From: Pantoea nemavictus
GTDB taxonomy: Bacteria > Pseudomonadota > Gammaproteobacteria > Enterobacterales > Enterobacteriaceae
Reading direction: 5' to 3'
Assembly (NCBI RefSeq): GCF_037479095.1
Contig: NZ_JBBGZW010000001.1
Coordinates: 434,001-498,000, forward strand
DNA: 64,000 nt
Below, piece by piece: positions 6,850 through 29,727 of this stretch. How positions within the stretch are numbered: position 1 is the first letter of the stretch; each line of letters starts with the position of its first letter. A model generated the notes under the pieces. It saw nothing but the letters and a program-made list of their open reading frames with translations. It was not told the origin of the DNA and ran no database searches. The position numbers and the translations under genes are program-made.

Positions 6850-6858
6850 AATTTAGAG

Positions 6859-8752: not shown

Positions 8753-8803
8753 CGTGATCTCGCGCTAACGCCCTTGGACTTGCGATTCGTACAGTCGCCA
8801 GCC

Positions 8804-8825: not shown

Positions 8826-8843
8826 TCATGGAAACAGCGCTGA

Positions 8844-10148
8844 TTAATCGATGCCGCGTGGTAAATCCGCCAGCTCCAGACTGCTGCGGAAATCATTACC
8901 CACATAATCCGTATCAATCAGTTGGCGGCGACGCAGTTCCGGCAGCAGGCCGTTAAGCAGTAAATCCTGCTGGTCCGGCTGCCCGAGGCCGTGCAGTGAA
9001 ATCACATCCAGCAAACCGGCCCGATAGCGCTGTTCGATGGCATCCGCCAGCGTTTCCGGCGTGCCAGCGACAAACCAGTGGCCGGTCTCTTCGGCTTTAA
9101 TGATCAGCTCGCGTAACGTCAATCCTTCCAGCGCATAACCACGGAAGATGGCCGCGCGCCCCTGGCGGCGATGCACCTGTGACAACTCGGGAATCAATGC
9201 TGCCGCAAGCGGTTGGTCGAGCGGCGCATCGCGCAGATCGACCTCTCCGCCCAGCATATCTGCCACGCGTAATCTGCCTTGTTCAAAGTTGATGCGCTCA
9301 TGCTTATCGCGTAAACGACGCGCCACATCGGCGTCGCTGTCACCAATGATGGCGTGGAACGAATTCATGATCAGCGGCGGATTGTGTTCGCGACCAAAAC
9401 GTCGTGCGCGCTGCTGCACATCGGCGACAAACGCCTGCGCGGCCTCAAAGGTTGGCTGCGAGGTGTAAATCACTTCGGCGTAACGTGCGCCAAGCGTCAC
9501 GCCCGCTTCAGACTGGCCCGCCTGGAACTGCACCGGACGGCGCTGCGGTGGTGGTGGCACGTTGAGCGGGCCCGCCACCTGGAAATAGTCGCCGCGATAG
9601 TTGATCGGATGCAGCTTTTGGTGATCGAGACGGATGCCGCCGCTGGCAGTGCGCTGCACCGCCGCGCGTTCGTTGGCGTCATACAGCGCATTCATGACCT
9701 CAATAAACTCAGTGGCGCGCGCGTAGCGCTCCTGCGGTGGCGGCAGTTGGCTCTCACCAAAGTTCTCTTCGCCGACCGAAGACGTCACCGCGTTCCAGCC
9801 CGCGCGTCCACCGCTGATGTGATCCAGCGTGCCGACCTGACGCGCCAGATTGTAGGGATGCAGCCAGCTGGTGCTGACGGTGGCAATCAACCCGATGTGT
9901 GAGGTCACCTGGCTCAACGCCGCCAGCGCAATCAGCGGATCCTGGGTGCCGGTGGTGCCGGCTAACCCCGCCGGATCGGCTTGCAGTAAATCGGCGGTGA
10001 ACAGCCCGGTAATCTTTTCGCGTTCTGCAATCTTCGCCAGTTCGATGGCGCGTGCCATGCCGACGCCTGGCTGAGCATCATTGGCGGCGGAGATAACACT
10101 GCTGGCGCCGACCAGCGTTTTCAATTTTCTGCGATAGGTTTGCGACAC
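8844..10148 (-). CDS. FMN-dependent monooxygenase, NtaA/SnaA/DszA/SoxA family
   Basis: Luciferase-like flavin monooxygenase of 434 residues. Family landmarks are ELAKIAEREKITGLFTADLL (about residue 35-55), LATVSTSWLHPYNLARQV, DHISGGRAGWNAVTS, RPVQFQAGQSEAG and the C-terminal TPETLADAIEQ. These enzymes use FMNH2 from a separate reductase to oxygenate aminopolycarboxylates, sulfones or thioethers; B. subtilis YxeK of the S-(2-succino)cysteine pathway belongs here. It lies 11 bp after an M20 amidohydrolase and at the end of a MetNIQ-like operon, which favours an organosulfur amino acid substrate. No flavin reductase is nearby. Confidence 0.85.
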   Translation of the reverse strand: MSQTYRRKLKTLVGASSVISAANDAQPGVGMARAIELAKIAEREKITGLFTADLLQADPAGLAGTTGTQDPLIALAALSQVTSHIGLIATVSTSWLHPYNLARQVGTLDHISGGRAGWNAVTSSVGEENFGESQLPPPQERYARATEFIEVMNALYDANERAAVQRTASGGIRLDHQKLHPINYRGDYFQVAGPLNVPPPPQRRPVQFQAGQSEAGVTLGARYAEVIYTSQPTFEAAQAFVADVQQRARRFGREHNPPLIMNSFHAIIGDSDADVARRLRDKHERINFEQGRLRVADMLGGEVDLRDAPLDQPLAAALIPELSQVHRRQGRAAIFRGYALEGLTLRELIIKAEETGHWFVAGTPETLADAIEQRYRAGLLDVISLHGLGQPDQQDLLLNGLLPELRRRQLIDTDYVGNDFRSSLELADLPRGID

Positions 10149-10159
10149 AACACTCTCCT

Positions 10160-11359
10160 TTATGGCTGGCGCGCGAAATCCGCTTTGACGTTGGTTAATG
10201 CATCCGCATCGGTCAGCAGACGTAAGCCGGTACGCGCCAGTACCCGCGCGCCAATCAATAGCGCCTGATAGCCGCGTTCTGAGTTCGCTGCTTCACGGAA
10301 CGGCACGGTGTGGAAAATTAGATCGTCAGGACCGATTTTCAGCCACGGATGCGCAGTCGGCACCGCATGGCTGATGTCACCGGCATCGGTCGACACTTTG
10401 TTCTTCTGTGGCGACAGATCAACCTGTTCGCCTGCGGCGCTAAACTCATCCAGCAGCAGCGCATCCAGCGCCGGATTGAGTTTGAAATCGCGCGGGCCAA
10501 TTTGATGATCAATCTCGACGCGCGCGCCGGTGGCTAGCGCCACGCCTTCAGCGATAGCGCGCAGACGCGGTTCGAGTGATTCGACAACGTCACGGCTGTC
10601 GGCGCGAATGTAGTAATGCGCCGAAGCATATTCCGGGATCACGTTCGGGGCCTGACCGCCGTTGGTAATAATGCCGTGCACGCGCACGCCGTCGGGCAGT
10701 TGCTGGCGCAGCACGCTGATGCCGTTGTACAGCAGCACCAAGGCATCCAGCGCGTTAATGCCCTCATGCGGCGCGCTGGCGGCATGCGATGGCTTGCCGT
10801 AAAAATGAAAATAGAGGTGATTGTTGGCCAGCGTTGACTCGGTCAAGCGGGTTTTACCGGCGGGATGCACCATCAGCGCCACGTCGACCTCTTTCAGCAA
10901 TCCGGCTTCGACAAAGCGTTTCTTCACGTTGCCTTTGGGGCCGCCCGGCCCGGCTAATCCGCCCTCTTCAGCTGGCGTACCCAGCACCACTACTCGGCCA
11001 CCGGTTTCTTCCAGTACCTGAGAAAGTGTGATTGCTGCCGCCACGCTGGTTGTGCCGATCAGATTGTGGCCGCAGGCGTGTCCGATACCGATCAGCGCAT
11101 CATATTCCGCCAGAAAAGCGATGGTTGGGCCAGGTTTGCTGCTGCTCTTCACCGCATAGAAGGCGGTTTCATGTCCGGTGACGTTGCGGGTGACGTCAAA
11201 ACCCTGCGCCGTCAGCAGCTGTGTCAGCTGTTCACTGGCGAAATACTCGTTGTTGCCGGTTTCGGGGTTTTGAAATATCGCCTGCGAGACCTTGAGATAG
11301 GCGGCGCTGTGCTGTTCGAGGCTGTTTTCAAGCGTGAGCTGAAGGGCGTTCAGCGTCAT
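10160..11359 (-). CDS. M20 family amidohydrolase/deacylase
   Basis: Zinc-dependent aminoacylase-type hydrolase of 399 residues. The metal-binding motif GHACGHN (around residue 97-103), the catalytic GTPAEEGG and the dimerisation-domain segment FYGKPSHAASAPHEGINALDA are present. The start is placed at 11359 because GGAG at 11367-11370 is 7 bases away; the upstream ATG at 11365 is too close. Relatives cleave N-acyl amino acids or p-aminobenzoyl-glutamate; beside a YxeK-like monooxygenase a YxeP-like deacetylase role is the best inference. Separated from the transporter genes by 131 bp with two palindromes. Confidence 0.85.
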   Translation of the reverse strand: MTLNALQLTLENSLEQHSAAYLKVSQAIFQNPETGNNEYFASEQLTQLLTAQGFDVTRNVTGHETAFYAVKSSSKPGPTIAFLAEYDALIGIGHACGHNLIGTTSVAAAITLSQVLEETGGRVVVLGTPAEEGGLAGPGGPKGNVKKRFVEAGLLKEVDVALMVHPAGKTRLTESTLANNHLYFHFYGKPSHAASAPHEGINALDALVLLYNGISVLRQQLPDGVRVHGIITNGGQAPNVIPEYASAHYYIRADSRDVVESLEPRLRAIAEGVALATGARVEIDHQIGPRDFKLNPALDALLLDEFSAAGEQVDLSPQKNKVSTDAGDISHAVPTAHPWLKIGPDDLIFHTVPFREAANSERGYQALLIGARVLARTGLRLLTDADALTNVKADFARQP

Positions 11360-11381
11360 AGTCATTCTCCTTTTGCTATGC

Positions 11382-11401
11382 GGTCGCCATAAATGGCGAC
11401 C
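11382..11401. repeat. Palindrome family A (GGTCGCCAT/ATGGCGACC)
   Basis: GGTCGCCATAAATGGCGACC, perfect 9-bp arms. Other copies at 20735, 40699, 44434, 47824, 47865 and, degenerate, 60206. Confidence 0.88.
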
Positions 11402-11467
11402 CTACGGTGAATCGGGGCCGATGGCGGAATGGGCGATGCGGAATGACGGCAGATAGCGGTGTTGTAG

Positions 11468-11487
11468 GGTGCGCATTGATGCGCACC
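11468..11487. repeat. Palindrome family B
   Basis: GGTGCGCATTGATGCGCACC, just after the stop of the MetI-like gene. Preceded by GTAG, a flank also seen next to family A copies. Confidence 0.85.
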
Positions 11488-11490
11488 TGG

Positions 11491-12150
11491 CTACGCATGA
11501 CGCTTATCAATGCGCTGCACCAGGCGGTCGCCGATCCATTGAATGCCGCATACCAACACAATCAATACCGCGATAACCGCGATCATCACCGAGGTTTCAA
11601 AACGCTGATAACCGTAACGGATCGCCAGATCGCCCAGCCCGCCCGCACCAATCGCACCGGCCATTGCTGAAGCGCCAATCAGCGCCACCAGCGTGACCAC
11701 AAAGCCGGAAAGAATGCCGGGCAGCGCTTCCGGGATCAGCACATCCCAGACGATGCGCAGTTTACTGGCACCCATGGCGCGTACCGCATCGATCAAGCCG
11801 CGATCGACATCGCGCAGCGAAACTTCCGCCACGCGTGCGAAGTACGGTGTTGCGGTGATCGACAACGGCACAATCGCCGCCCAGGTACCGAGCGACGTTC
11901 CCACCAGGAAGCGGGTAAAGGGAATCAGCGCCACCAGCAAAATAATGAACGGCAGCGAGCGGAAGCTGTTGATGACCAGGCCAAGCACGCGATTGATCGC
12001 CCGATGTTCAGCAATGCCGCCGGGGCTGGTCATCACCAGAATCAGGCCGAGCGGCAAGCCCGCCAGCAGCGAAAACAGGCCGGAAATGGCGGTCATCAAT
12101 ACCGTTTCGCCCAGCGCATTGAGCAGTAAATCAATCATGACTGGCGACAT
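11491..12150 (-). CDS. MetI-like ABC transporter permease
   Basis: Membrane subunit of a methionine-type importer, 219 residues with about five hydrophobic segments and the permease EAA-type loop AVRAMGASKLRIVWDVLIPEALPG. Length and order match MetI. The start at 12150 overlaps the ATPase gene by 20 bp and has GGTAGG upstream. With a monooxygenase and deacylase in the same transcription unit the cargo may be an S-modified cysteine or methionine derivative rather than methionine itself. Confidence 0.88.
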   Translation of the reverse strand: MSPVMIDLLLNALGETVLMTAISGLFSLLAGLPLGLILVMTSPGGIAEHRAINRVLGLVINSFRSLPFIILLVALIPFTRFLVGTSLGTWAAIVPLSITATPYFARVAEVSLRDVDRGLIDAVRAMGASKLRIVWDVLIPEALPGILSGFVVTLVALIGASAMAGAIGAGGLGDLAIRYGYQRFETSVMIAVIAVLIVLVCGIQWIGDRLVQRIDKRHA

Positions 12151-13261
12151 AACCTACCAACTCCACTTGTGCCTGCTGCGTGTGCAGCCAGCTGAGAATC
12201 TGTTGCTCATCGGCGGCATTCGCCACCGGGAGCGCGATAAAGAAACGCACCACCGCGTAGTGCTGGATGTGATCGACACCGCCTTGCAGCAGGCGGAATT
12301 TGCCCGGCAGCGCCGCGGCAAAACGCGTCAGCAGATCGCCCTGCGCATCGTCGCCGGCAAAGTGCACGCTGTAGATGGCTTCACCCTGCGGTTGATCGCT
12401 CACGCGCGCGGCCAGGTTTTCCGGCAGCTGCGGCAACAAGCCACGCAGTAGCGTGCGCGTCAGCGCCGATTGCGGATGAGCAAACACCTGCCACACCGGA
12501 CCTTGTTCGATAATTTGCCCGGCATCAATCACCGCCACGCGATGCGCGACAGATTTGATCACCTCCATCTCGTGGGTAATCAGCAGAATAGTGATGCCAA
12601 GTTTTTGATTAAGGGATTTGAGCAGCGCCAGAATTGAGCGCGTAGTTTCCGGATCGAGCGCGGAAGTGGCTTCATCACACAGCAGCAGCGCCGGACTGGC
12701 CGCCAGCGCGCGCGCAATGCCGACACGCTGTTTTTGTCCGCCGGATAACGCCGCCGGATAGCTTTGCGCTTTGTCCGCTAATCCCACCAATTCCAGCAAT
12801 TCCGCTACGCGCTGCTGGCGTTGCGCTTTAGCCATGCCAGCGATTTTCAGCGGCAGCGCCACGTTCTGCGCCACGGTTTTCGCCGACAGCAGATTGAAGT
12901 GCTGGAACACCATGCCGACGCGGCTGCGCACCGTTTGTAACTGTTTTTCTGACAGGCCGGTGATGTTCCGGCCTTCGATTTCGATGACGCCTTCATCAGG
13001 TTGCTCCAGCCCGTTAAGACAGCGGATTAGCGTGGATTTCCCCGCCCCGCTGCGCCCAATCAGGCCAAGAATTTCGCCTTTCTGCACCGTTAACGAAATA
13101 TCGCGTAGCGCCTGCGTCTGTCTGAAGCGCCGCGACACACCTTGCAGGCGCACCACGCTGGTGCTGTTGCGAAACGTCACCTGCGCCTCGTCATGCGTAC
13201 TGTCGGCCACGCCGCGCGTTAAAGCGTTAAAGGGCGTTTCGGCTGCTGAGAATAGCGTCAT
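12131..13261 (-). CDS. MetN-like ABC transporter ATP-binding protein
   Basis: ATPase of 376 residues. The ABC domain (about 33-270) has Walker A GRSGAGKST, Q-loop FQHFNLLSAKTV, signature ALSGGQKQRVGIARAL and Walker B LLLCDEATSALDPET; a C-terminal NIL-type regulatory domain (about 295-370) follows, as in MetN. An N-terminal extension of about 30 residues is unusual for MetN. AAGGAACAGAAAG precedes the ATG. Second gene of the operon after the binding protein. Confidence 0.88.
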   Translation of the reverse strand: MTLFSAAETPFNALTRGVADSTHDEAQVTFRNSTSVVRLQGVSRRFRQTQALRDISLTVQKGEILGLIGRSGAGKSTLIRCLNGLEQPDEGVIEIEGRNITGLSEKQLQTVRSRVGMVFQHFNLLSAKTVAQNVALPLKIAGMAKAQRQQRVAELLELVGLADKAQSYPAALSGGQKQRVGIARALAASPALLLCDEATSALDPETTRSILALLKSLNQKLGITILLITHEMEVIKSVAHRVAVIDAGQIIEQGPVWQVFAHPQSALTRTLLRGLLPQLPENLAARVSDQPQGEAIYSVHFAGDDAQGDLLTRFAAALPGKFRLLQGGVDHIQHYAVVRFFIALPVANAADEQQILSWLHTQQAQVELVGYVASHD

Positions 13262-13272
13262 CTTTCTGTTCC

Positions 13273-14100
13273 TTACCAGGCTGTCTCACCGGTGCCTTTG
13301 TAGACCTTGTCAAACACGGTCTTCACAGCATCGTTCTGATAAGAAGAGACCAGCGTTTTCACCCATGGCGCGCTGACGTTCTCTTTCTTCACCGCAATGA
13401 AGTTGTTGTATGGGTTATCTTTTACCGGCTCCTGGGCAATGCGGTCTGCGGCGGTCAGGCCACTTTTCAGCGCCCAGTCGGTGTTCACCACCGCAGCATC
13501 CAGATCGGGAACAGAGCGGCCAATGATGCCGGAATCCAGCTCTTTGATTTGCAGGTGATGGGGGTTAGCGGTGATATCAGCGGTGGTCGCCGCGATGCCC
13601 ACGCCCGGTTTCAGTTTGATCAGCCCCTGCTGCTCCAGCAGCACCAGGCCGCGCGCTTCGTTGGAGGGATCGTTTGGCACGCCAATGACCGCGCCCTCTT
13701 TCAGCTCGGCGGCCGTTTTTACTTTCTTCGAGTAGAGACCAATCGGCCAGACGGCGGTATCGCCCACGCGTACGATATCGTAGTGATTCACCTTGATTTG
13801 GTTATTCAGGAACGGCTGATGCTGGAAGGCGTTGGCGTCCACCTCACCGTTTTGTAGCGCTTCGTTCGGCTGGTTGTAGTCGTTGAAGATGACCGTTTTC
13901 ACCGTCAGGCCTTTGCTGGCGGCCTGCTTGATGACTTCGCGCCAGACATCTTCATCTTCGCCGCTCATAATGCCGACTTTGATTGAGGTTTTATCCGCCG
14001 CATGCGCGATGGACAATGGCGACAGCGCCGCACTCGCCAGCAGCAAAGCGCCGGCGGTTAACAGGAATTTATTTTTTACCGAGGCCAAACGTGTGTGCAT
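13273..14100 (-). CDS. MetQ/NlpA-type substrate-binding protein
   Basis: Periplasmic binding protein, 275 residues from the ATG at 14100 (the longer frame to 14136 lacks a good ribosome-binding site). Signal peptide about residues 1-35 ending SIAHAA; no lipobox cysteine, so probably soluble. NlpA/MetQ landmarks: SIKVGIMSGEDEDVW, NDYNQPNEALQNGEVDANAFQHQPFL and IGVPNDPSNEARGLVLLEQQGLI. First gene of the operon binding protein-ATPase-permease-M20-monooxygenase. Confidence 0.87.
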   Translation of the reverse strand: MHTRLASVKNKFLLTAGALLLASAALSPLSIAHAADKTSIKVGIMSGEDEDVWREVIKQAASKGLTVKTVIFNDYNQPNEALQNGEVDANAFQHQPFLNNQIKVNHYDIVRVGDTAVWPIGLYSKKVKTAAELKEGAVIGVPNDPSNEARGLVLLEQQGLIKLKPGVGIAATTADITANPHHLQIKELDSGIIGRSVPDLDAAVVNTDWALKSGLTAADRIAQEPVKDNPYNNFIAVKKENVSAPWVKTLVSSYQNDAVKTVFDKVYKGTGETAW

Positions 14101-14142
14101 AAAATGTTTCCCAATCGTTATAATTGCGCGAGTCAAAATAAG

Positions 14143-14157
14143 CTGTCGTAACGACAG
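14143..14157. promoter_or_regulatory. Perfect palindrome, candidate TetR-family operator
   Basis: CTGTCGTAACGACAG: 7-bp arms with a single central base, 43 bp upstream of the MetQ-like start and on the way to the divergent TetR-type gene. Size and symmetry suit a TetR-family dimer. Confidence 0.5.
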
Positions 14158-14203
14158 ATGACCGCAGTATACGCAGTTGCTTATTCCTGCATTATGATTT
14201 ATT

Positions 14204-14220
14204 CGGGAATGCTATTCCTG
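14204..14220. promoter_or_regulatory. Second quasi-palindrome in the divergent promoter region
   Basis: CGGGAATGCTATTCCTG, arms matching at 6 of 7 positions. ATTCCTG also occurs alone at 14183-14189. Possible operator; weaker than the site at 14143. Confidence 0.3.
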
Positions 14221-14313
14221 AAATGCATAAAGGCATCACGCCGCTCGCATCGCCACAAGCGCGAAAATGGCTGTGTTATCCTTCCCCTTTTGATTGACCT
14301 GTTACTGAGCGCT

Positions 14314-14955
14314 ATGTCGGACACCATAACCAAACGAAAAAATGACCCTGAAGGGCTCAAGAGACGCATCCTCGCCGGTGCGCTGAAAATGTTTGCCGAG
14401 TTCGGCATGCAGGGCGCGCGGCTGGAGCAGATCGCTGAGCACGCCCAAACCACCAAACGCATGGTGGTGTATCACTTCGGCAATAAAGAGCAGCTCTATA
14501 TCGAGGTGCTGGAGCAGGTGTATCAGGCGATTCGTCAGCATGAAACCGGCCTGAACCTGGCGGCGATGGAGCCGGAGCTGGCGATGACCAAACTGGTGGA
14601 GGCCAGCTTTGATTATCATGTTTCGCATCCGGATTTTATGCGGCTGGTGTGTACCGAAAACCTGCTGCGCGGCCGCTACATCATGCAATCGGAACGCATT
14701 AAAACGCTGAATAAGAGTGCGCTTGATGTGCTCGACGACATCCTGACGCGCGGTCAGCAGCAGGGGCTGTTTATTCAGGAGCTGGATACCGTCGATGTGC
14801 ACCGCCTGCTCAGCAGCATTTGTGTGCATCACGTTTCCAATCGCTACACCTTTCATACGCTGTTCACGCCAAACGATAGCGAGGAGGACAGCATCCGCCG
14901 TAATCGGCAGTTAGCGGTCACCGCCACCTTGCGATATGTGCGCAAAGCCCCGTAG
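14314..14955 (+). CDS. TetR-family transcriptional regulator
   Basis: 213 residues from the ATG at 14314 (MSDTITKRKND); the longer frame to 14158 would run through the promoter region. N-terminal HTH: RRILAGALKMFAEFGMQGARLEQIAEHAQTT, then KRMVVYHFGNKEQLYIEVLEQVY, classic TetR. The C-terminal ligand domain (about 80-205) resembles the RutR/YcdC-like subgroup. Divergent from the MetQ-like operon, which it probably controls through palindromes at 14143 and perhaps 14204; ligand unknown. Confidence 0.88.
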   Translation: MSDTITKRKNDPEGLKRRILAGALKMFAEFGMQGARLEQIAEHAQTTKRMVVYHFGNKEQLYIEVLEQVYQAIRQHETGLNLAAMEPELAMTKLVEASFDYHVSHPDFMRLVCTENLLRGRYIMQSERIKTLNKSALDVLDDILTRGQQQGLFIQELDTVDVHRLLSSICVHHVSNRYTFHTLFTPNDSEEDSIRRNRQLAVTATLRYVRKAP

Positions 14956-15029
14956 TCTGCGGCTTCGCTGTGATGGTCTACGCTTAAAAGCTTGGGACCG
15001 TCACAGACCTCAGACTAAGGAACGCCGTA

Positions 15030-16412: not shown

Positions 16413-16430
16413 GTTTGAAGGGGAGAAACC

Positions 16431-17258: not shown

Positions 17259-17267
17259 TTTGGAACA

Positions 17268-17330
17268 GCGCGATAAATCGCGCCGCTACAGGATTGTTCC
17301 CTTATTGTAGCGGCGCAATTCATTGCGCAT
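17268..17330. repeat. Palindrome family C, two facing copies
   Basis: GCGATAAATCGCGCCGCTAC at 17270-17289 and GTAGCGGCGCAATTCATTGC starting at 17308 face each other across about 18 bp. Same family at 28029-28097 and 36695-36734. Confidence 0.8.
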
Positions 17331-17340
17331 AGATTCATAC

Positions 17341-17362
17341 AGGTGCGCACTGCTGCGCACCT
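17341..17362. repeat. Palindrome family B
   Basis: AGGTGCGCA-CTGC-TGCGCACCT, perfect 9-bp arms, between the convergent glycosyltransferase and monooxygenase genes. Confidence 0.85.
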
Positions 17363-17368
17363 GGAGAC

Positions 17369-18391
17369 TTAACGCCAGCCTAACTCGGGCGCGACGTGGG
17401 TGAGGATGCTTTCAATCACGTGCGCACAGTAATCCACGCCGAGCTGATTCGGGATGGTCAACAGCAGCGTATCGGCTTCGGCAATGCCTTCATCCTGCGC
17501 CAGCTGTTGGATCAGCTTATCGGGCTCGGCGGCATAGCTGCGGCCAAAGATGGCGCGGGTTTTCTCGTCGAGGAAACCAACCGAATCCTGATCCTGTCCG
17601 CTGCGGCCAAAGTAGGCGCGGTCGGTGTCGTTGGTCAGCGCAAAGATACTGCGGCTCACTGAGACACGCGGCGTGCGTTGATGTCCCGCGGCTTCCCAGG
17701 CTGCGCGATAGGCTCGAATCTGTTTCGCCTGCTGCACATGGAACGGCTCGCCGGTTTCATCATCTTTCAGGGTAGAGCTTTGCAGGTTCATGCCCTGCTG
17801 TGCCGCCCAAATCGATGTCGCGTTGGAACCGGATCCCCACCAGATACGCTCACGCAAACCGGCCGAGAAGGGCTCAAGACGCAGCAAGCCCGGCGGATTC
17901 GGGAACATCGGCTGTGGATTAGGTTTGGCAAAACCTTCGCCGCGTAGCACTTCCAGCAGCTCTTCGGTGTGACGACGGCCCATATCGGCATCGCTTTCAC
18001 CGTTCTGTGGATCAAAACCAAAGTAACGATAACCTTCAATCACCTGCTCAGGTGAACCCCGGCTCAGACCAAGCTGCAGACGGCCGTTGGAGATCAGATC
18101 CGCCGCGCCTGCATCCTCTGCCATATACAGCGGATTTTCGTAACGCATATCGATAACGCCGGTACCAATTTCGATCTTTTTAGTACGCGCACCCACCGCC
18201 GCCAGCAGCGGGAACGGCGAGCTAAGCTGCCGGGCAAAGTGATGCACGCGGAAATAGGCGCCATCGGCACCCAACTCTTCGGCAGCGACCGCTAAATCAA
18301 TCGATTGCAGCAGCACGTCCTGCGCCGAGCGGGTGGCGGACTGCGATGACGGCGTCCAGTGACCGAAGGATAAAAAGCCAATATTTTTCAT
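17369..18391 (-). CDS. Luciferase-like (LLM) flavin-dependent oxidoreductase
   Basis: 340 residues from the ATG at 18391 (MKNIGFLSFGHWTP), which has GAGGAG upstream; the frame continues eight codons farther without a better site. Landmarks of the bacterial luciferase superfamily: AAEELGADGAYFRVHHFARQLSSPFPLLAA, KIEIGTGVIDMRYENPLYMAEDAGAADLISNGRLQLGLSRGSP split over residues 60-125. The subgroup is the short LLM class, different from the two NtaA/SnaA-type enzymes in this window. Monocistronic, divergent from the desaturase gene; substrate unknown. Confidence 0.82.
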   Translation of the reverse strand: MKNIGFLSFGHWTPSSQSATRSAQDVLLQSIDLAVAAEELGADGAYFRVHHFARQLSSPFPLLAAVGARTKKIEIGTGVIDMRYENPLYMAEDAGAADLISNGRLQLGLSRGSPEQVIEGYRYFGFDPQNGESDADMGRRHTEELLEVLRGEGFAKPNPQPMFPNPPGLLRLEPFSAGLRERIWWGSGSNATSIWAAQQGMNLQSSTLKDDETGEPFHVQQAKQIRAYRAAWEAAGHQRTPRVSVSRSIFALTNDTDRAYFGRSGQDQDSVGFLDEKTRAIFGRSYAAEPDKLIQQLAQDEGIAEADTLLLTIPNQLGVDYCAHVIESILTHVAPELGWR

Positions 18392-18596
18392 GCTGAAATT
18401 CTCCTCGTGAGCCACGCAGGCCCGAACGTTTTCAATGCAGCAAGGTTACGCCAGACCCGAGATGACTGATAGCCAATAGATTTCGCGCGCTTCATCAACT
18501 TTTTTGCATAAGTAAGAAAAAGAGATTCTTTGTGATGATCACCGTTATCAATCATCTTTGGCAGCATATTCCCGCTTTAGCAGGTTCAGTAGGGTT

Positions 18597-20346: not shown

Positions 20347-20352
20347 TGTCCA

Positions 20353-20372
20353 GGTGCGCATGAATGCGCACC
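20353..20372. repeat. Palindrome family B
   Basis: GGTGCGCATGAATGCGCACC directly after the PhnD-like gene, followed by CCTACAG and a GGTCTCCATTTATGG half copy of family A. Confidence 0.82.
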
Positions 20373-20921: not shown

Positions 20922-22259
20922 TCACGCCACCTGCTGACTTCCGCGCTGCACCGCGAACTGGTTCTCTGGCTCGGCCAGCCCGAGATTTTCCCGCAGCGTC
21001 TCGCCTTCATACTCATTGCGATAGATACCGCGCGCCTGCAGCAGTGGAATCACCTGCGCCACAAAATCATCAAACGCCGTTGGCGTGCCGCCGCGCACGA
21101 TGAAGCCGTCGGTGGCGCCGGCCAGGAACCAGTCTGCCAGCCCGTCCGCCACCTGCTCTGCCGTACCAAGGAAACTCGGGCGCGGCGTGGCCTCCTCCAG
21201 CGCCGTCTGGCGCAGCGTTAAGCCGCGAGCATGCGCATTCTGTTTAATCTTATCGGTGGTGCTGCGGAAGCTGTTCGCGCCCAATTCGCCAATATCCGGG
21301 AAGGGTTCATCCAGCGCGTACTGACTGAAATCGTGATGCTCAAAGTAGCGGCCAAGATACTCCAGCGCTTTATCGATGGTCACCAGCTCGGCAGTTTGCT
21401 GATAGCGGCGTTCGGCATCCTGTTCCGTTTCACCGATAATCACGCTGATGCCCTGAAACACACGAATATCATCCGCATCGCGGCCGCGCGCCACCAGACG
21501 ACGGCGCACGTCTTCGCGGAACTCACGCGCCTGCTCCAGCGTTTCCTGGCGCGTGTAGATGGCATCGGCGGCTTCGGCGGCGAAAGCTTTACCCGCTTCA
21601 GACGCGCCCGCCTGGAACACAATCGGACGTCCCTGCGGCGAACGCCCAACGTTCAGCGGTCCCTGCACCGAGAAGTAGTGGCCTTTATGGTTCAGCGTAT
21701 GCAGCTTGTCGGCGGCGAAGAACTCGCCGCTGTGCTTATCTCGCACAAACGCATCGCCCTCCCACGAATCCCACAACCCTTTGACCACCTGCAAATATTC
21801 GCTGGCCACGCGATAGCGCTCGTCGTGCTCCGGATGGCTGCTGCGTGAGAAGTTTTTCGCCGAACCTTCCAGCGGCGAGGTCACCACGTTCCAGCCTTGA
21901 CCGCCGCTCAGGTGGTCAAGGCTGGCGAACTGGCGCGCCACGGTGAACGGCTCGCTGTAGGAGGTGGAGAGCGTGGCGACCAGACCGATGTTTTTCGTCA
22001 CCAGCGACAGCGCCGACAGCAAAGTGATGGGTTCGAAGCGATTGAGGAAGTGCGGAATCGACTGCGGCGTAATGTACAAGCCGTCGGCGACGAACAGGAA
22101 ATCAATCTTCGCCTGCTCCGCTTTACGCGCCAGATCCAGCACGTAATCAACGTTGATGCTGGCATCCGCCACCGCATCGGGATGACGCCATGCCGACATG
22201 TTGCCGGATACGCCCTGAATAATCGCGCCCAGTCGCAGCTGGCGTTGTGTTTGACTCAT
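20922..22259 (-). CDS. FMN-dependent monooxygenase, NtaA/SnaA/DszA/SoxA family (second)
   Basis: 445 residues, same family as the enzyme at 8844-10148 but clearly distinct. Landmarks: [20 protein letters not shown] at the N-terminus, [65 protein letters not shown], and [17 protein letters not shown]-type site upstream of the ATG at 22259. Last gene of the Dpp-like transporter operon, 11 bp after the ATPase gene, so its substrate probably arrives through that importer. A flavin reductase partner is not in the window. Confidence 0.85.
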
Positions 22260-22269
22260 TCTGCTCTCC

Positions 22270-23877
22270 TTAATATGCGTGTGCGGGCTGCCAGTCGGGG
22301 ATCACCGGCAGCGCCTGTAACAGTTTTTGCGTCCACGGATGCTGCGGCGCGGCGAATACCTGCTGCAGCGCGCCGCTCTCCACCACTTGTCCGTTCTGCA
22401 TCACCAGCACACGATCCGCGAGGTGCTGGATCACGCCGAGATCGTGCGAAATAAACAGCAGCGCGGTGCCGTGCTCAGCCTGCATATCGGCCAGCAGATC
22501 CAGCACCTGCGCCTGCACCGAAACATCCAGCGCGCTTACCGGCTCATCGGCCACCAGCAGCGCCGGATTAGGTGCAAAAGCGCGCGCTATTGCCACGCGC
22601 TGGCGCTGCCCGCCGGACAGCTGCTGCGGATAGCGCTGCAGAAAGCGGTCGCCGAGCTGCACTTCGTCCAGCAGCTGGCGCACGCGCTGACGTCGCGCAT
22701 CGCCATAAATACCGGCGCTGTCGAGGCTTTCACCGATGATTTTTTCCACCGTGTAACGCGGATCGAAGGAGCTGAACGGGTCTTGCGCGATCAGCTGTAG
22801 GCGCGCACGCCGGGCGCGGCGCGCTTTCTCCGGCAGACGATCCCAGCGCTCACCTTCCAGCAGCAGCGTGCCGCTATCCGGTTCGGTTAAGCCCATCACC
22901 ACTTTCACCAGCGAGGTTTTACCCGAGCCGGATTCACCGACTACGCCAAGCGTTTCGCCGGCATGCAGCGTGAAGTTAATGTCATTTAGCACCAGTCGAT
23001 CGCCGTAGGCTTTGTGCAGGCCGATGCCTTCCAGCAGCGGCGCGTGGCTGCGTTGTGGCCGTGGCGGCAGCGGCGTTGGCTCGGCGGCGCTAAGGCGTAA
23101 ACCGCGCGTGGCGGGCGTCGGCACCGCACGCAGCAGACGCTGTGTCCAGGCGTGTTGCGGGCGTTGCAGCAGCGGGCCGCTGTGGCCCTGCTCCACCACT
23201 TCGCCATCACGCATCACCAGCACGCGATCCGCCAACTCGGCAACCACCGCCAAATCGTGGCTGATCAACAGCAGGCCGTGCCCGTCACGCCGCCGCTGCG
23301 CCAGCAGCTGCAGAATCTGGCGCTGTACCGTCATGTCCAGCGCGGTGGTCGGTTCATCGGCAATCAATAACGTCGGCGTACCCGCCAGCGCGGTGGCAAT
23401 CAGCGCACGCTGACGCTGGCCGCCCGAAAGCTGATGCGGATAACGTTCCAGTCGGCTCTCCGCATCGTGAATGCCCGCCGCCTTCAGCAATTCGATGCTT
23501 TTATCCTGCAGATTGCCGCGATGTCCGACGGCGCTTAACGCATCGCCCAGCTGCTGACCAATGCGGCGTAGCGGATCGAGCGACACCAGCGCATCCTGCA
23601 ACACATAGCCAATGCGGCGACCGCGCAGCGCGCGCCAGTCGCTGCGGCTGGCATGGCGCATATCGCGCCCGTCGATGGTGAATCGGTCGGCCGTGACGAT
23701 GGCCCCTTCCGGCAACAGGCCGAGCAGGCTGCGCGCGGTGAGGGTTTTGCCGGATCCGGACTCCCCCACCAGCGCCACCGATTCTCCCGCCGCCACCTGC
23801 AGGCTGAGATTCTTCACCACCTGCTGTGGACCGAAGCGAATCGAGAGATTGTGGATATCAATAAATGGCTGACTCAT
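22270..23877 (-). CDS. Fused dipeptide/nickel-type ABC transporter ATPase (DppD-DppF fusion)
   Basis: 535 residues with two complete ABC domains (about 1-255 and 275-530), as in GsiA or YejF. Domain 1: [35 protein letters not shown]. Domain 2: [39 protein letters not shown]. Overlaps the DppC-like gene by 4 bp (ATGA). It powers the importer formed with the two permeases and the family-5 binding proteins. Confidence 0.92.
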
Positions 23878-24707
23878 GCTGAGCGTCCTTCAAAACGTGC
23901 CTGCCAGTAACGGCCCAGCGTGTTAACCGCAATCACCGTCAGCGTGATGAACACGCCCGGCCACACCGCAATCCACCAGGCATTACGCAGATAGTTGCGC
24001 CCTTCCGCCAGCATCAGGCCCCATTCGGCCGTCGGCGGCTGCGGCCCCATGCCGAGAAAACTCAAGCCGGCAGTGCCGATAATCGCGGTGCCAAGTCCGA
24101 GCGTCGCCAGTGCCGGAACCTGCGCAATGGCGTGCGGCAGAATATGGCGGGTGATCAGCGTAAAGCGTGACAAACCAAAGGTGCGCGCCTGTTCGACGTA
24201 GCCAGACGTCATCACGCTGTAGGTTTGGGCGCGCACCACGCGGGCAAAGCGCGGCACCGATGCCACACCGAGCGCGATGATCAGGTTATTCGTACCGGGG
24301 CCGGTAAAGGCGATCAGCATCAGCGCCAGCAGCAGATCGGGAAAGGCGGAAATCACATCCACTGCGCGGCTTAGCAGCTCATCAACCACGCCACGCGCCA
24401 GCGCGGCCGCCAGCCCGAGCAAGGTGCCGAACACCACCGCCAGCGCCATTGCCGCTACGCTTATCAGCAGCGAATAGCGGCTGCCATAAATCACGCGCGT
24501 GAGCAGATCGCGTCCGAGCTGATCGGTGCCGAGCCAGTGCTGCGCCGACGGCGGCAGCTGGGCGTTGACCGGATCGGCCAGCAGTGGATCGCTATGCGCC
24601 AGCCACTGCGGCGCGATCACCGCGGCAGCCAGCACCAGCAGAAACAGAATGGCAGCCCATACCGCGGCGGGCAGAGCAACCGGCAGGCGTTGCAGCGCGG
24701 CAATCAT
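23874..24707 (-). CDS. DppC-like ABC transporter permease
   Basis: 277 residues from the ATG at 24707, which overlaps the DppB-like stop by 4 bp and has GGGGAG upstream (the frame is open to 24743 but that start lies inside the preceding gene). Six hydrophobic segments; LAHSDPLLADPVNAQLPPS and HWLGTDQLGRDLLTRVIYGSR are the canonical DppC/OppC N-terminal motif, and the EAA loop is EQARTFGLSRFTLITRHILPHA. Confidence 0.9.
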   Translation of the reverse strand: MIAALQRLPVALPAAVWAAILFLLVLAAAVIAPQWLAHSDPLLADPVNAQLPPSAQHWLGTDQLGRDLLTRVIYGSRYSLLISVAAMALAVVFGTLLGLAAALARGVVDELLSRAVDVISAFPDLLLALMLIAFTGPGTNNLIIALGVASVPRFARVVRAQTYSVMTSGYVEQARTFGLSRFTLITRHILPHAIAQVPALATLGLGTAIIGTAGLSFLGMGPQPPTAEWGLMLAEGRNYLRNAWWIAVWPGVFITLTVIAVNTLGRYWQARFEGRSA

Positions 24708-25696
24708 GATTTGCTCTCCCCACGCAGACGGGGATCGATCCACAGCGACAGGATGTCGACTAAGGTGCTCATCACCACGTAGATCAGCGCCGACAGAATC
24801 GCCACCGCCAACACCACCGGTAGATCCTGCGCCAGCACCGCATCCACCGTTAATTTACCGAGCCCGGGACGTCCAAACACCTGCTCGGTGATCACCGCAC
24901 CGCTGAGTAAGCCGCCCACCAGCCAGCCGGTTAAGGTCACTGCCGGCAGCGCCGCATGGCGCAGCGCGTGACGCAGCCGGATGGTGCTTTCACCCACGCC
25001 CCACGCGCGCAGCGTCAAGGTGAACGGCGCATCCAGCGCGCGCTCCAGTTCGCGGCGCAGCAGCTGGGCAATCACGGCGCCCTGCGCCAGGCCAAGCGCC
25101 AGCGCCGGCAGCACCAGCGACGACAGCGAGCGATCGCCCGCCACCGGGAACCAGCGCAGCGTAAAGCTGAAAATAAACAGCAGCACAATGCCCATCCAGA
25201 ACGAGGGCGTGGAGGCCAACAGCAGTTCAACCGCGTTAGCGATGCGGCGGCCGATGCGCCGATGCGCTGTGCCGACGGCAATCGCCACCGCAAACAGGAT
25301 GCTGACCAGCAGCGCTGCCAGCGTCAGTTTGATGGTGGGCCATAACTGCGTTGCCAGCAGATGGCTGACTTCCGTGTTGAGCATATAAGAACGGCCAAAG
25401 TCGCCGTGCAGCACGCGCCACATGTAGTGCAGATACTGCCACCACAGCGGCTGGTTCAGGCCCCATTCGGCGCGGATCGCCGCCTCAATTGCCGGGGTGC
25501 GCAGCTGCTCACCAATCAGCAGGCTGACAATATCCCCCGGCGCCAGATGCACGCCGAGAAAAGCCAGCGATACCGCCGCCCACAGCACCAGTACGCCGCC
25601 CAGCAGACGGCTGACAATGCGGCGCGTTAAATCGCTGCGCCACACCGATGGCCGCCGCGCGCGTGGCGTGCGGGTGACAATGCTTTCCAGACTCAT
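24704..25696 (-). CDS. DppB-like ABC transporter permease
   Basis: 330 residues from the ATG at 25696 (MSLESIVTRTPRARRP) with a perfect AGGAGG box; the frame runs open upstream through the binding-protein gene, which is a shadow. Landmarks: LGVHLAPGDIVSLLIGEQ, AEWGLNQPLWWQYLHYMWRVLHGDFGRSY split over residues 60-95, and PALALGLAQGAVIAQLLRREL. An unusually long basic N-terminus (about 28 residues) precedes the first membrane segment. Confidence 0.9.
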   Translation of the reverse strand: MSLESIVTRTPRARRPSVWRSDLTRRIVSRLLGGVLVLWAAVSLAFLGVHLAPGDIVSLLIGEQLRTPAIEAAIRAEWGLNQPLWWQYLHYMWRVLHGDFGRSYMLNTEVSHLLATQLWPTIKLTLAALLVSILFAVAIAVGTAHRRIGRRIANAVELLLASTPSFWMGIVLLFIFSFTLRWFPVAGDRSLSSLVLPALALGLAQGAVIAQLLRRELERALDAPFTLTLRAWGVGESTIRLRHALRHAALPAVTLTGWLVGGLLSGAVITEQVFGRPGLGKLTVDAVLAQDLPVVLAVAILSALIYVVMSTLVDILSLWIDPRLRGESKS

Positions 25697-25709
25697 CTTC
25701 GCCTCCTGA

Positions 25710-27323
25710 TCAGTGGTCGCTGAGCCAGATGTCGTACGCGTTCTCCGGCATCTGTTTAAAACTGCGGAAACCGGCACCGTGCACATAGCTGGCGGTGGCG
25801 ATCTGGTCTTCAGGTTCATACAGCGGAATCGCCAGCGCCTGCTGTGGCAGCGCATAGTGCTGCAGCTGGCTGTAGAATTTACGGCGCTGATTGATGTCCA
25901 GCGTGGCGGCGGCCTGGTCGAGCCAGCCGTTGATTTGCGGGCTGTTGACGCGGCTGTAGTTGATCGGTCCACCCGCTGTCACCGGACGGTAGTGATTTTC
26001 GATATCGATGCCGTCGGTTTCGGTATTCGAGTTGGCAATTGAACCAAAGTGGCCGGTGTTGCGCACCTCGGTGTAGGTGCCGGAATCGACGTAGCGCAGT
26101 TTAATCTCCACGCCGAGTCGCTGACGCGCCTGCGCCTGAATCGCTTGCAGCAGCACATCACGCTGATCGCGCACCGTCGCCTGGGCCTGAATCACCTCAA
26201 TGCTCAGACGCTGGCCCTGTTTGCTGCGGAAACCCTCGGCATCGCGCGTTTGCCAGCCAGCGTCATCCAGCAGCTTGTTGGCCGCCGCCGGATTGTTGCC
26301 GTACTGGCCTTCAAGATCGTTGTTGTAGAGCGGATCGACCGGCGAGGTGATGCCCCACGCGCGGGTGCGCTCACCGCGATACACCGACTTGAGCAGCGGA
26401 TCAATATCCAATCCCTGCAGCAGCGCCTGGCGCACCTGCACATCCTGCGTTGGACCATACTCCACGTTGAGAAACAGCGAATACGGCGTGCCGGTATTCA
26501 GAGCGTGCTGATAGGTAAAGTCAGGATTGTTTTTGAATTCGCCGGCATCGTTGCCCGAAATTCCCTCTATCGCGTCAAGTTGCCCAGAAAGCAGCGCGCC
26601 GGTGCGCACCGAGGATTCCGGCAGGAAGCGATAAGTCACGCGTTCCAGATAGGCCGGGCCCTGGTGCTTTGCGGTGGCAGGCGCCCAGTTGTAGTGAGGA
26701 TTACGCACGAAGGTGACCTGCTGGCCCTTTTCGTAGCTCTCGATAATGAACGGTCCGGTGCCCGCAATCTCTTTGCCGCCAGCCTTTAGCTGCGGCGAGT
26801 TCCAGCTGGCCGGTGCCAAAATCTGCAGTTTGGCGGCAAACGACAGGAACGGCGAATAGCCCTGCTTCAGCGTGATGGTCACGGTGTGATCGTCCGGCGT
26901 CGCCACGCTGGCAATACGCGCGCCCAGGGCGCAGATGCTGCTGCCCGCGCAGTATTTTGCGTCCTGCACATGGCGGAAGTTCTCGGCTACCGCGTTGGCA
27001 TCGAGCTTCTCACCGTTGGAGAAGGTAACGTCGCGGCGCAGGCTAAAGCGATAGGTTTTACCGTCAGGGCTTACTTCATAACTCTCCGCCAGCCACGGCA
27101 CGAAGCTGCCGTCGGTACGTCGCGCCAGCAGCGATTCCCAGACGTTACGCAGCGTGACTTCGGCTTTCGATTGCCCATTCAGCTGCGGGTTAAACGGCAC
27201 CGGCTCGGTTTCCACACCAAACGTCAAACTGCCGCCGCTGCGGGGTTGCTCGGCAGCCAATAATGATGCGCTTCCCAGCAGGCAGGCCACACCCAGCGCG
27301 AGAGTGATTGAATTCGCTTTCAT
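25710..27323 (-). CDS. Family 5 extracellular solute-binding protein, copy 1
   Basis: Periplasmic DppA/OppA-type binding protein of 537 residues with a signal peptide (MKANSITLALGVACLLGSAS..LLAA, cleavage before EQPRSGG). Typical motifs: GSLTFGVETEP, WESLLARRTDGSFVPWLAESY, LRRDVTFSNGEKLDANAV, GTGPFIIESYEKGQQVTF. The same length and roughly four-fifths of residues are shared with the copy at 28114-29727; the middle (about residues 255-400) is nearly identical. 13 bp ahead of the DppB-like gene. Ligand unknown. Confidence 0.92.
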   Translation of the reverse strand: MKANSITLALGVACLLGSASLLAAEQPRSGGSLTFGVETEPVPFNPQLNGQSKAEVTLRNVWESLLARRTDGSFVPWLAESYEVSPDGKTYRFSLRRDVTFSNGEKLDANAVAENFRHVQDAKYCAGSSICALGARIASVATPDDHTVTITLKQGYSPFLSFAAKLQILAPASWNSPQLKAGGKEIAGTGPFIIESYEKGQQVTFVRNPHYNWAPATAKHQGPAYLERVTYRFLPESSVRTGALLSGQLDAIEGISGNDAGEFKNNPDFTYQHALNTGTPYSLFLNVEYGPTQDVQVRQALLQGLDIDPLLKSVYRGERTRAWGITSPVDPLYNNDLEGQYGNNPAAANKLLDDAGWQTRDAEGFRSKQGQRLSIEVIQAQATVRDQRDVLLQAIQAQARQRLGVEIKLRYVDSGTYTEVRNTGHFGSIANSNTETDGIDIENHYRPVTAGGPINYSRVNSPQINGWLDQAAATLDINQRRKFYSQLQHYALPQQALAIPLYEPEDQIATASYVHGAGFRSFKQMPENAYDIWLSDH

Positions 27324-27359
27324 AAGATCCTTGAAGGTTGCAGGTGTTTTTTTAGTTGT

Positions 27360-27884
27360 TCAGGCAATTTTGGCGATGGGTTGCTCGGCTGGCGGGTTGA
27401 ATTCCTTTTTCAGAAATACCAGCGCTTCGCCTAAGGGATTGGTGCGGTGATGGAAAGGTTGATAGCCACGGCGCAGATAGAGTTCGCTCAGCCACGGATG
27501 TTTAGTGGCGGTGGCCAGATAGACACCGGGCGCTTTCAGCGTCTGCTTCAGCAAGGTTTCTTCGGCGTAGGTGATGATGTCACGACCATAACCCTGACCT
27601 TTGTAATCGGGATCGACGGCGAACCAGTGAATGAACGGCAACGTTGATGGCGCATGTTCATCCTGCTGCCACGGAAAACGCACCGTCACTGTGGCGACCG
27701 CGCGTTTCCACTTGCGCAGCACCAGCACCGTTTCCTGTTCGATGACGCGGCGAACCTGCTCGACGTTGCCCTGCGAAATGGTGAAATGCACATCCAGCGC
27801 CACCAGCGCGGCATAGGCACGCTGCAGCAGGGCAAAAACCTCTTCGGCGTCTTCAGGTTTAGCGACTTCAATCAGCTGGCTCAT
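27360..27884 (-). CDS. GNAT-family N-acetyltransferase
   Basis: 174 residues from the ATG at 27884 (MSQLIEVAKPEDAEEVFALL). Acetyl-CoA motif A is DYKGQGYGRDI, followed by LYLRRGYQPFHHR of motif B. It sits between the two binding-protein genes in the same direction, 37 bp ahead of copy 1, and has its own upstream region containing the 27-bp block at 27956-27982. By analogy with YxeL/SnaA-type enzymes it could N-acetylate an S-substituted cysteine before monooxygenation; sequence alone does not show the substrate. Confidence 0.85.
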   Translation of the reverse strand: MSQLIEVAKPEDAEEVFALLQRAYAALVALDVHFTISQGNVEQVRRVIEQETVLVLRKWKRAVATVTVRFPWQQDEHAPSTLPFIHWFAVDPDYKGQGYGRDIITYAEETLLKQTLKAPGVYLATATKHPWLSELYLRRGYQPFHHRTNPLGEALVFLKKEFNPPAEQPIAKIA

Positions 27885-27955
27885 ATTTTCCGTTCTCTTA
27901 ATCAATCTTACGGAAAGTATTAAAATCCGGCGGATTAAAGTAAACCGAGAATAAC

Positions 27956-27982
27956 GGCAATCGATTTGTTGAATATGGCAAT
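27956..27982 (-). promoter_or_regulatory. 27-bp conserved upstream block, copy 1 (GNAT gene)
   Basis: The 27 bp at 27956-27982 are identical to 29837-29863 upstream of binding-protein copy 2; the core includes ATCGATTTGTTGAATATGGC. On the coding strand TTGCC occurs at both ends of the block, and the downstream one could serve as a -35, with an AT-rich region 17 bp later. Flanking sequence is also similar. It starts 72 bp before the ATG. Confidence 0.55.
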
Positions 27983-28028
27983 GCAATAATATGGCGGGAA
28001 ATGATAATAGTTAATTAATGCCCATATC

Positions 28029-28097
28029 GTAGCGGCGCAATTTATTGCGCTGTTTTGACTTTTAAAATCAATTGAGCGCAATAAATTGCGCCGCTAC
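28029..28097. repeat. Palindrome family C, large inverted pair
   Basis: A 22-bp arm beginning GTAGCGGCGCAATTTATTGC (28029-28050) is answered by its exact complement at 28076-28097, giving a 69-bp hairpin between binding-protein copy 2 and the GNAT gene. Confidence 0.88.
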
Positions 28098-28113
28098 GAA
28101 TAGGTGCGATTAT

Positions 28114-29727
28114 TTAATGTTTATCCACCCAAACATCGTAAACGCTTTCAGGCATCTGCTTGTAGCTGCGGAAACCGTAACCGTGCACGTAGCTGGCGGT
28201 GGCTAACTGATCTTCCGGTTCATACAGCGGCACGGCCAGCGCCAGCTGCGGCAACGCCACCTGCTGCAATTGGCTATAGAAATCGCGGCGCTGTTTAAGA
28301 TCCAGCGTGCTGGCGGCTTGATCCAGCAGGCCATTGATCTGCGCATCGTTGACACGGCTGTAGTTAATTGCGCCACCTTGCGCAATCGGACGATAGTGGT
28401 TTTCGATGTCCACGCCATCGGTTGGCGTGTTGGAGTTGGCGATGGTGCCGAACTTGCCGCTTTTGCGCACGTCGGCGTAGGTACCGGAGTCGACATAGTT
28501 CAGCTTGAGGTCCACGCCCAGACGCTGACGCGCCTGCGCCTGAATCGCCTGCAATAGCACATCGCGCTGATCGCGCACCGTCGCCTGCGCCTGAATCAGC
28601 TCAATGCGCAGACGCTGGCCCTCTTTGCTGCGGAAGCCTTCGGCATCGCGCGTTTGCCAGCCGGCGTCATCCAGCAGCTTGTTGGCCGCCGCCGGATTGT
28701 TGCCGTACTTCCCTTCCAGCTCTTTATTGTAGAGCGGATCAATAGGCGAAGTGATGCCCCACGCGCGCGTGCGTTCACCGCGATACACCGACTTCAGCAG
28801 CGGATCAATATCCAACCCCTGCAACAGCGCCTGGCGCACTTTGACATCCTGCGTCGGGCCATATTCCACGTTGAGGAACAGCGAATAGGGCGTGCCGGTG
28901 TTCAGTGCATGCTGATAGGTGAAGTCTGCATTGTCTTTGAACTCGCCAGCATCGTTGCCCGAAATCCCTTCAATCGCATCCACCTGACCGGAGAGCAGCG
29001 CCCCGGTGCGCACCGACGATTCCGACAGAAAGCGATAGGTAACGCGATCGAGATACGCCGGTCCCTGATGTTTAGCGGTGGCGGGCGCCCAGTTGTATTT
29101 CGGGTTTTTAACGTAAGTGACCTGCTGACCTTTTTCATAGCTGTCGAGAATAAACGGCCCGGTGCCCGCCAGATCTTTGCCACCCGATTTCAGCTGCGGC
29201 GATTTCCAGCTGGCCGGTGCCAGAATCTGCAAGCCCGCAGCGAAGGAGAGGAACGGTGAATAGACCGCTTTCAGCGTGATGACCACCGTGTGATCGTCAG
29301 GCGTTTCAATCTTATCAATGTGCGAACCCATCAGGCACAAGCTGGTTCCGGCGCAGTATTGCGCCACCTGGGTTTGACGGAAATTGTCGGCAACGGCGTT
29401 GGCATCAAATTTTTCACCGTTCGAGAAGGTGACGTCGCGACGCAGGTTAAAGCGAATTACTTTGCCATCCTCGCTGGCCTGATAGCTTTCCGCCAGCCAG
29501 GGCACAAAGCTGCCGTCCGGACGGCGTGCCAGCAGCGATTCCCAGAAGTTCCGCAGCGTAATTTCGGCCTTATCCTGGCCGTTGAGCTGTGGATTAAAGG
29601 TGGTCGGTTCGGTTTCGACGCCGACCGTCAGGCTGCCGCCGTTAACGGGCCGATCGGCAGCCACAACGCTAAACGCGCTTCCCAGCAGGCTGAAACCCAG
29701 CGCCAGAGCTATTGTATTTATTTTCAT
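28114..29727 (-). CDS. Family 5 extracellular solute-binding protein, copy 2
   Basis: 537 residues, signal peptide MKINTIALALGFSLLGSAFS..VVAA with cleavage before DRPVNGG. Closely related throughout to copy 1 (25710-27323), so it arose by duplication; differences cluster in the N-terminal third and the C-terminal 100 residues, where ligand contacts can lie. It is the first gene of the leftward series and has its own upstream block (29837-29863). Two binding proteins probably feed the single Dpp-like membrane complex, perhaps with different ligands. Confidence 0.92.
   Translation of the reverse strand: MKINTIALALGFSLLGSAFSVVAADRPVNGGSLTVGVETEPTTFNPQLNGQDKAEITLRNFWESLLARRPDGSFVPWLAESYQASEDGKVIRFNLRRDVTFSNGEKFDANAVADNFRQTQVAQYCAGTSLCLMGSHIDKIETPDDHTVVITLKAVYSPFLSFAAGLQILAPASWKSPQLKSGGKDLAGTGPFILDSYEKGQQVTYVKNPKYNWAPATAKHQGPAYLDRVTYRFLSESSVRTGALLSGQVDAIEGISGNDAGEFKDNADFTYQHALNTGTPYSLFLNVEYGPTQDVKVRQALLQGLDIDPLLKSVYRGERTRAWGITSPIDPLYNKELEGKYGNNPAAANKLLDDAGWQTRDAEGFRSKEGQRLRIELIQAQATVRDQRDVLLQAIQAQARQRLGVDLKLNYVDSGTYADVRKSGKFGTIANSNTPTDGVDIENHYRPIAQGGAINYSRVNDAQINGLLDQAASTLDLKQRRDFYSQLQQVALPQLALAVPLYEPEDQLATASYVHGYGFRSYKQMPESVYDVWVDKH

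Follow-up and report, generated by a model that had tools for sequence, protein, structure and literature searches.

Here, we describe two minus-strand operons in a 64,000-nucleotide stretch of the Pantoea nemavictus genome (contig NZ_JBBGZW010000001.1, positions 434,001 to 498,000; hereafter the window), which probably encode two parts of a single route for salvaging sulfur from an S-substituted cysteine or a dipeptide containing it. Operon 1 encodes LLM1, a flavin mononucleotide (FMN) monooxygenase of the NtaA/DmoA family, together with an M20 metallohydrolase and a MetNIQ-like importer. Operon 2 encodes a second such monooxygenase (LLM2), a GNAT acetyltransferase and a Dpp-like importer with two binding proteins. 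We treat the two operons as one set because relatives carry them as one operon, because their genes co-occur in the genus and the family, and because the operon 2 importer accompanies LLM1 at loci elsewhere. An earlier note on this DNA had proposed such a set, and the single operon and the co-occurrence bear it out. The same note had claimed salvage of S-alkylcysteines; this stands insofar as LLM2 and the GNAT resemble enzymes of a Bacillus subtilis pathway, while its assignment to the yxe genes fails.

Fused operons and co-occurrence in relatives

Pantoea sp. At-9b and P. vagans have the genes in one eight-gene operon, GNAT-SBP-DppB-DppC-DppDF-LLM2-M20-LLM1, with gene-by-gene identities of 85-92%, and the same eight-gene single operon is present in genome G530. 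A differently ordered fusion, M20-LLM1-GNAT-SBP-B-C-DF, occurs in G549, with no LLM2 in the stretch. Among 61 genomes of the genus, P. nemavictus included, 24 carry LLM1 and 25 the GNAT; the GNAT is present in every one of the 24 LLM1 genomes and in one of the 37 others (Fisher p = 4e-16). Twenty of the 24 genomes have the two genes on the same contig, separated by no more than 31 kb; the other four (G240, G541, G572 and G573) have them on different contigs, those of G572 being different replicons. A sample of 246 genomes of the same family yielded LLM1 in nine and, by E-value, the GNAT in 11, with an overlap of 9/9; identity drops to 37-38% for two of these 11, and the match in G115 is the ScmL-like gene. 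When at least 50% identity is required, the GNAT is found in nine family genomes, among them eight of the nine with LLM1 (p = 3e-13).

LLM1 was further followed at 25 loci, namely 18 of 25 plasmid records (LLM1 at least 56% identical) and seven of the other eight LLM1 genomes of the family sample; plasmid records H43, H50-H53, H55 and H59 and family genome G173 were left out. An importer of the operon 2 type (DppB at least 65% identical) is encoded at 14 of these loci and a remnant of it at one; in the plasmid records it accompanies LLM1 in 12 of 18. N-acetyl-S-alkylcysteine is sulfoxidised by CmoO and cleaved by CmoJ (PMC10863075). A CmoO-like gene is present at 11 of the 25 (10 of the 18 plasmid records) and an LLM2 orthologue at five. 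Seven loci (L061, L066, L138, L139, L140, L145 and L146) combine LLM1, the importer and a CmoO-like gene without an LLM2 orthologue, which suggests that LLM1 can fill the C-S cleaving place. At a Terrarubrum locus, LLM1 stands beside CmoJ-like, M20, GNAT, MalY/PatB, flavin reductase and cysteine synthase genes.

Organization and integrity of the operons

All twelve open reading frames (ORFs) of the two operons are in frame, free of internal stops and located on the minus strand. The monooxygenases, M20 enzyme, GNAT, two importers and two binding proteins listed in the earlier note are thus present and intact, and the layouts agree with its statement that the GNAT and the M20 enzyme belong to different operons, each with its own monooxygenase and transporter. 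Operon 1 has the order LLM1 (8844..10148), M20 (10160..11359), a gap of 131 bp, MetI-like permease (11491..12150), MetN-like ATPase with NIL domain (12131..13261) and MetQ/NlpA-family binding protein (13273..14100; PF03180). The M20 gene starts at 11359, preceded by a ribosome-binding-like sequence, and the MetQ-like gene at 14100. Measured against curated cut-offs, only the MetI-like protein passes (NF008049, 233 bits versus 212); the MetN-like (352 versus 500 bits) and MetQ-like (227 versus 374 bits) proteins fall short.

Operon 2 comprises LLM2 (20922..22259), a DppDF-like double ATPase (22270..23877), DppC-like (23874..24707) and DppB-like (24704..25696) permeases, the SBP_bac_5 binding protein SBPb (25710..27323), the GNAT (27360..27884) and, after 229 bp, a second SBP_bac_5 protein, SBPa (28114..29727). 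SBPa and SBPb are 80% identical to each other. The genes are under purifying selection, with dN/dS of 0.017-0.076 in all orthologue comparisons (G240, Pantoea sp. SO10, At-9b). Four comparisons were excluded as paralogue matches (0.108-0.549): LLM1 and MetN against SO10, SBPb against G240 (0.135; the G240 block has no SBPb) and SBPa against At-9b (0.108; a single SBP there).

Two clades of monooxygenase

Both monooxygenases belong to the NtaA/DmoA subfamily defined by TIGR03860 (cut-off 279.7 bits), with 533 bits for LLM2 and 345 bits for LLM1. LLM2 is 57% identical to CmoJ, scores 562 bits to YtnJ and lies within the CmoJ clade (support 100/100 in one tree and 95/100 in another), making it a predicted CmoJ/YtnJ-like C-S monooxygenase. 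A topology in which LLM2, its orthologues and the L021 enzyme group with ScmK apart from CmoJ was rejected (approximately unbiased test, p = 8e-122). Nor does LLM2 cluster with the EDTA or nitrilotriacetate enzymes, a placement that the earlier note had said would speak against its pathway. The motif SGGRVGWN of another genome of the species is SGGQGWN in the window LLM2, whose gene has three bases fewer here; the difference is either an in-frame change private to this strain or an error in the sequence.

LLM1 and its relatives form a clade of their own (100/100 support) that falls into neither the CmoJ nor the ScmK group. The clade may stand beside EmoA (support 41/51 in one tree and 81/60 in another), in a comparison that included no verified NtaA. 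An AlphaFold2 model of LLM1 (mean predicted local distance difference test score 79) aligns about equally to 3sdo, CmoJ, EmoA and BdsA. The LLM1 orthologue of G553 (L212) is interrupted by one internal TAG stop.

Acetyltransferase and M20 enzyme

The best match of the GNAT among labelled Bacillus GNATs is YtmI (37% identity). In the tree, the two lie within the YtmI/ScmL group and both stand outside the supported ScmL subclade. The M20 enzyme, predicted to be a deacylase or dipeptidase, scores 327 bits against HmrA (3ram) versus 36 bits against YxeP. LLM3 (17369..18415, minus strand), a luciferase-like ORF between the operons that the earlier note had overlooked and that reaches 99 bits against TIGR04027 (cut-off 413), was considered as the missing CmoO and rejected, being only 25% identical to CmoO over about half its length; it is possibly an accessory. 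The closest CmoO-like genes of the genome are located on the other contig (43% identity) and far off on the chromosome (36% and 40%).

Proposed pathway and its weak points

We infer the catalytic steps, their order, the substrate, the reductase and a response to sulfur starvation from homologues. The compound would be imported by the Dpp-like importer, possibly also by the MetNIQ-like one, and N-acetylated by the YtmI-like GNAT. Reduced-flavin monooxygenases would then cut the C-S bond, with LLM2 acting like CmoJ on an N-acetyl sulfoxide and LLM1 either acting on a second substrate or taking the LLM2 slot in species without LLM2. Finally, the HmrA-like M20 enzyme would take off the acyl group or split the dipeptide to yield cysteine. 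FMNH2 could be supplied by SsuE, which is encoded elsewhere on the chromosome, or by another reductase encoded elsewhere; as the earlier note had remarked, no flavin reductase is apparent, and no such family was matched among the 23 window proteins scanned, the remaining window proteins lying outside that scan. Our guess is that a sulfoxide as the imported substrate would remove the need for CmoO.

It is intriguing to go further and propose that LLM1 represents a new class of C-S monooxygenase, which would work with the YtmI-like GNAT and the Dpp importer of operon 2 on S-alk(en)ylcysteine sulfoxides of plant origin or on their dipeptides; these would arrive already oxidised, so that CmoO is unneeded. 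The HmrA-like M20 enzyme would open the dipeptide or remove the acetyl group, and M20 and LLM1 would form a mobile pair able to combine with different importers. We regard this extended proposal as tentative and somewhat doubtful.

Several observations weigh against assigning both operons to one salvage pathway. The M20 enzyme falls into the HmrA/PM20D2 group of the tree rather than with the YtnL/ScmP-type deacetylases. At a threshold of at least 70% identity, it is absent from seven of the nine LLM1 genomes of the family sample and present without LLM1 in 11 other genomes, and at all six loci fetched for close relatives (71-73%; L119-L123, L136), in genomes without LLM1, the M20 gene directly precedes Dpp-like importer genes. 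Neither operon contains a CmoO-like gene, by which the window set departs from the Cmo type. The importer is not in the stretch at 10 of the 25 LLM1 loci, so LLM1 may act on something else; for four of these (L059, L126, L128 and L134) it is encoded elsewhere in the genome. The GNAT set occurs without LLM1 in G528 and, in the family sample, in G222, and G115 has LLM1 without a close GNAT. Moreover, many species carry the two genes linked (~17 kb), so that the genus counts do not represent independent events. Finally, the conserved arginine of the SGGR motif, kept in 33 of the 33 other proteins in which the motif pattern could be found (proteins without the pattern being uncounted), is absent from the window LLM2, and this loss may weaken the enzyme in the window strain.

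Alternative explanations

The earlier note had read the enzymes as a split yxe (scm) pathway for S-(2-succino)cysteine, in which YxeL acetylates, YxeK oxygenates and YxeP deacetylates. This reading draws on the same enzyme superfamilies and the same logic of acetylation, cleavage and deacetylation (PMC12757645). However, LLM2 groups with CmoJ/YtnJ and its grouping with ScmK was rejected, the GNAT lies outside the ScmL clade, the M20 enzyme lies with HmrA/PM20D2 and outside the ScmP/YtnL group, and a closer Scm-like set is encoded elsewhere in the same genome. An identity with YxeK, YxeL and YxeP is not upheld, and since phylogeny largely refutes this explanation, we consider it highly improbable. 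Another possibility is that LLM1 and the importers serve an aminopolycarboxylate, an opine or a heterocycle in the manner of EmoA, NtaA or riboflavin lyase. We hold such a non-sulfur function to be quite unlikely, as LLM2 is clearly CmoJ-like and the neighbours of LLM1 in other genomes include cysE, SfnB, cysteine synthase and MalY/PatB.

The operons might also belong to separate pathways, with operon 1 as a MetNIQ-fed route for sulfones or methionine derivatives, operon 2 as a CmoJ-like route, and their closeness as an old chance neighbourhood. Each operon has its own importer, sets of a monooxygenase with a MetNIQ-like importer occur twice more in the genome (L020 and L023), LLM1 of G219 has a MetNIQ-like set in its vicinity, and the segments are on different replicons in a sister clade, all of which would suit such a separation. 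Yet it is difficult to reconcile with two differently ordered one-operon fusions and with close co-occurrence even where LLM1 and the GNAT are unlinked, and we judge it unlikely. A single pathway in two modules remains our preferred interpretation.

Genomic history of the block

The order of the window, that is, operon 1, TetR, lactone oxidase, GT8, LLM3 and operon 2, is found with some insertions on one large contig in G536 (which is missing SBPb), G575 and G554. The same order is seen in G562 within the retrieved stretch, which extends to TetR, and LLM1 is on the same contig there. In G240, a block equal to window positions 17336-42637 (25 kb) but without SBPb is located on another contig; much of it is carried by a 744-kb plasmid in Pantoea sp. 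SO10, and operon 2 of G572 is on a 927-kb second contig. The P. nemavictus genome (5.19 Mb) consists of contigs C1 (4.30 Mb) and C2 (0.89 Mb, 887 kb). At the plasmid site, this genome lacks the block. Collinearity with SO10 over C2:604790-611974 extends to the end of the alanine racemase gene, the neighbour of LLM3 in SO10; the following gene, at C2:612163, is the one that borders the G240 block on its other side, and a 164-bp stretch between them matches the G240 block. We considered a move of the block from a megaplasmid to the chromosome beside operon 1 and rejected it, as both are on a single contig, ordered as in the window, in G536, G575, G554 and G562. Because these four genomes share that order, the block most likely left the chromosome in the G240/G572 group. 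With the plasmid site empty here and other genomes having one contig, the split over two replicons is probably derived.

REP-like palindromes (GGCGCAATTTATTGCGC type) are located at 17268-17328 near the block edge, at 28029-28097 between SBPa and the GNAT, and at 36695-36729 after fimbrial genes. In the window and in G572, these fimbrial-type genes (31250-36644) separate operon 2 from the gene at 37477; they occur beside operon 2 in G545 as well and are absent at that place in G536, G575, G554, G562 and G528.

Neighbouring genes

A TetR-family regulator (14158..14955, plus strand; true start probably internal) is divergent from operon 1 and, by its position, may control it. Cbl, noted earlier at the left end of the window, was confirmed by equivalog NF009324 (617 bits), its gene running past the left edge. 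With Nac encoded at 1068-1985, the proximity of Cbl reflects a nac-cbl neighbourhood and is no evidence of regulation of the operons. At 6774-8752, a tRNA-Asn is followed by an ORF that is HipA-like as judged by eye; most of 6899-8843 is missing from the G240 contig at this place. Positions 55842-55914 and 61292-61413 correspond to the STnc240 small RNA and the histidine operon leader.

Related sets and comparison with known systems

The genome encodes nine NtaA/DmoA proteins above the cut-off on C1 and C2, seven besides LLM1 and LLM2; among the seven, two (L020 and L023, see above) have MetNIQ-like importers and two (L024 and L026) lie near Dpp-like importers. An Scm-like set is located at C2:301-318 kb (ScmK 51%, ScmL 42%, ScmP 48%) and a Ytm-like set at C2:267-285 kb (CmoO 41%, CmoJ 57%, ScmP/YtnL 47/44%). 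Since these sets lie elsewhere and LLM2 belongs to the CmoJ clade, we interpret the window set as a third, Cmo-like set with a Dpp-type importer. One genome would thus hold three related but distinct sets of the cysteine-conjugate type. If the proposed pathway is correct, C-S cleavage that depends on N-acetylation is not confined to the B. subtilis sets but also occurs in plant-associated proteobacteria, together with an importer of the peptide type and a second clade of monooxygenases, as yet uncharacterised. The presence of one pathway as a single operon, as two linked operons or split over two replicons within one genus would provide a case for operon formation.

B. inaquosorum loci served as references for ytm/ytn (L032) and scm (L118). 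CmoJ of L032 was confirmed by 96% identity to the YtnJ piece in the PDB and ScmP of L118 by its match to PDB yxeP 1ysj (824 bits); the other gene names in L032, and ScmK and ScmL in L118, are assigned from gene order. The B. subtilis scm (yxe) genes share with the window the superfamilies of acetyltransferase, monooxygenase and M20 enzyme, but none of LLM1, LLM2, the GNAT and the M20 enzyme falls into the Scm clades of ScmK, ScmL and ScmP. YxeK was present in 67 of 102 yxe loci among ~2000 genomes in the figures given by PMC9706529.

Closer is the B. subtilis ytm/ytn system (Cmo: YtmI, TcyJKLMN, CmoO, CmoJ, YtnL), with which the window shares a CmoJ-clade monooxygenase and the logic of import, acetylation and cleavage; its GNAT is 37% identical to YtmI. 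PMC12757645 implicates the ytn and yha gene clusters in the breakdown of S-methyl- and S-benzylcysteine and reports deacetylation of N-acetylcysteine by YtnL, ScmP and YhaA. In contrast to the Cmo system, the window operons have a Dpp-type instead of a Tcy-type importer, contain neither CmoO nor YtnI and carry an HmrA-like M20 enzyme in place of YtnL, while LLM1 and the MetNIQ-like importer are extras of the window set. Rhizobial plasmid operons differ in keeping the CmoO-like gene, in having the importer and LLM1 in one gene run and in showing no HmrA-like M20 gene in the stretch. They nevertheless resemble the window set in DppB (66-69%), in LLM1 (68-73%) and, in the two that also encode it, in LLM2 (73-75%).

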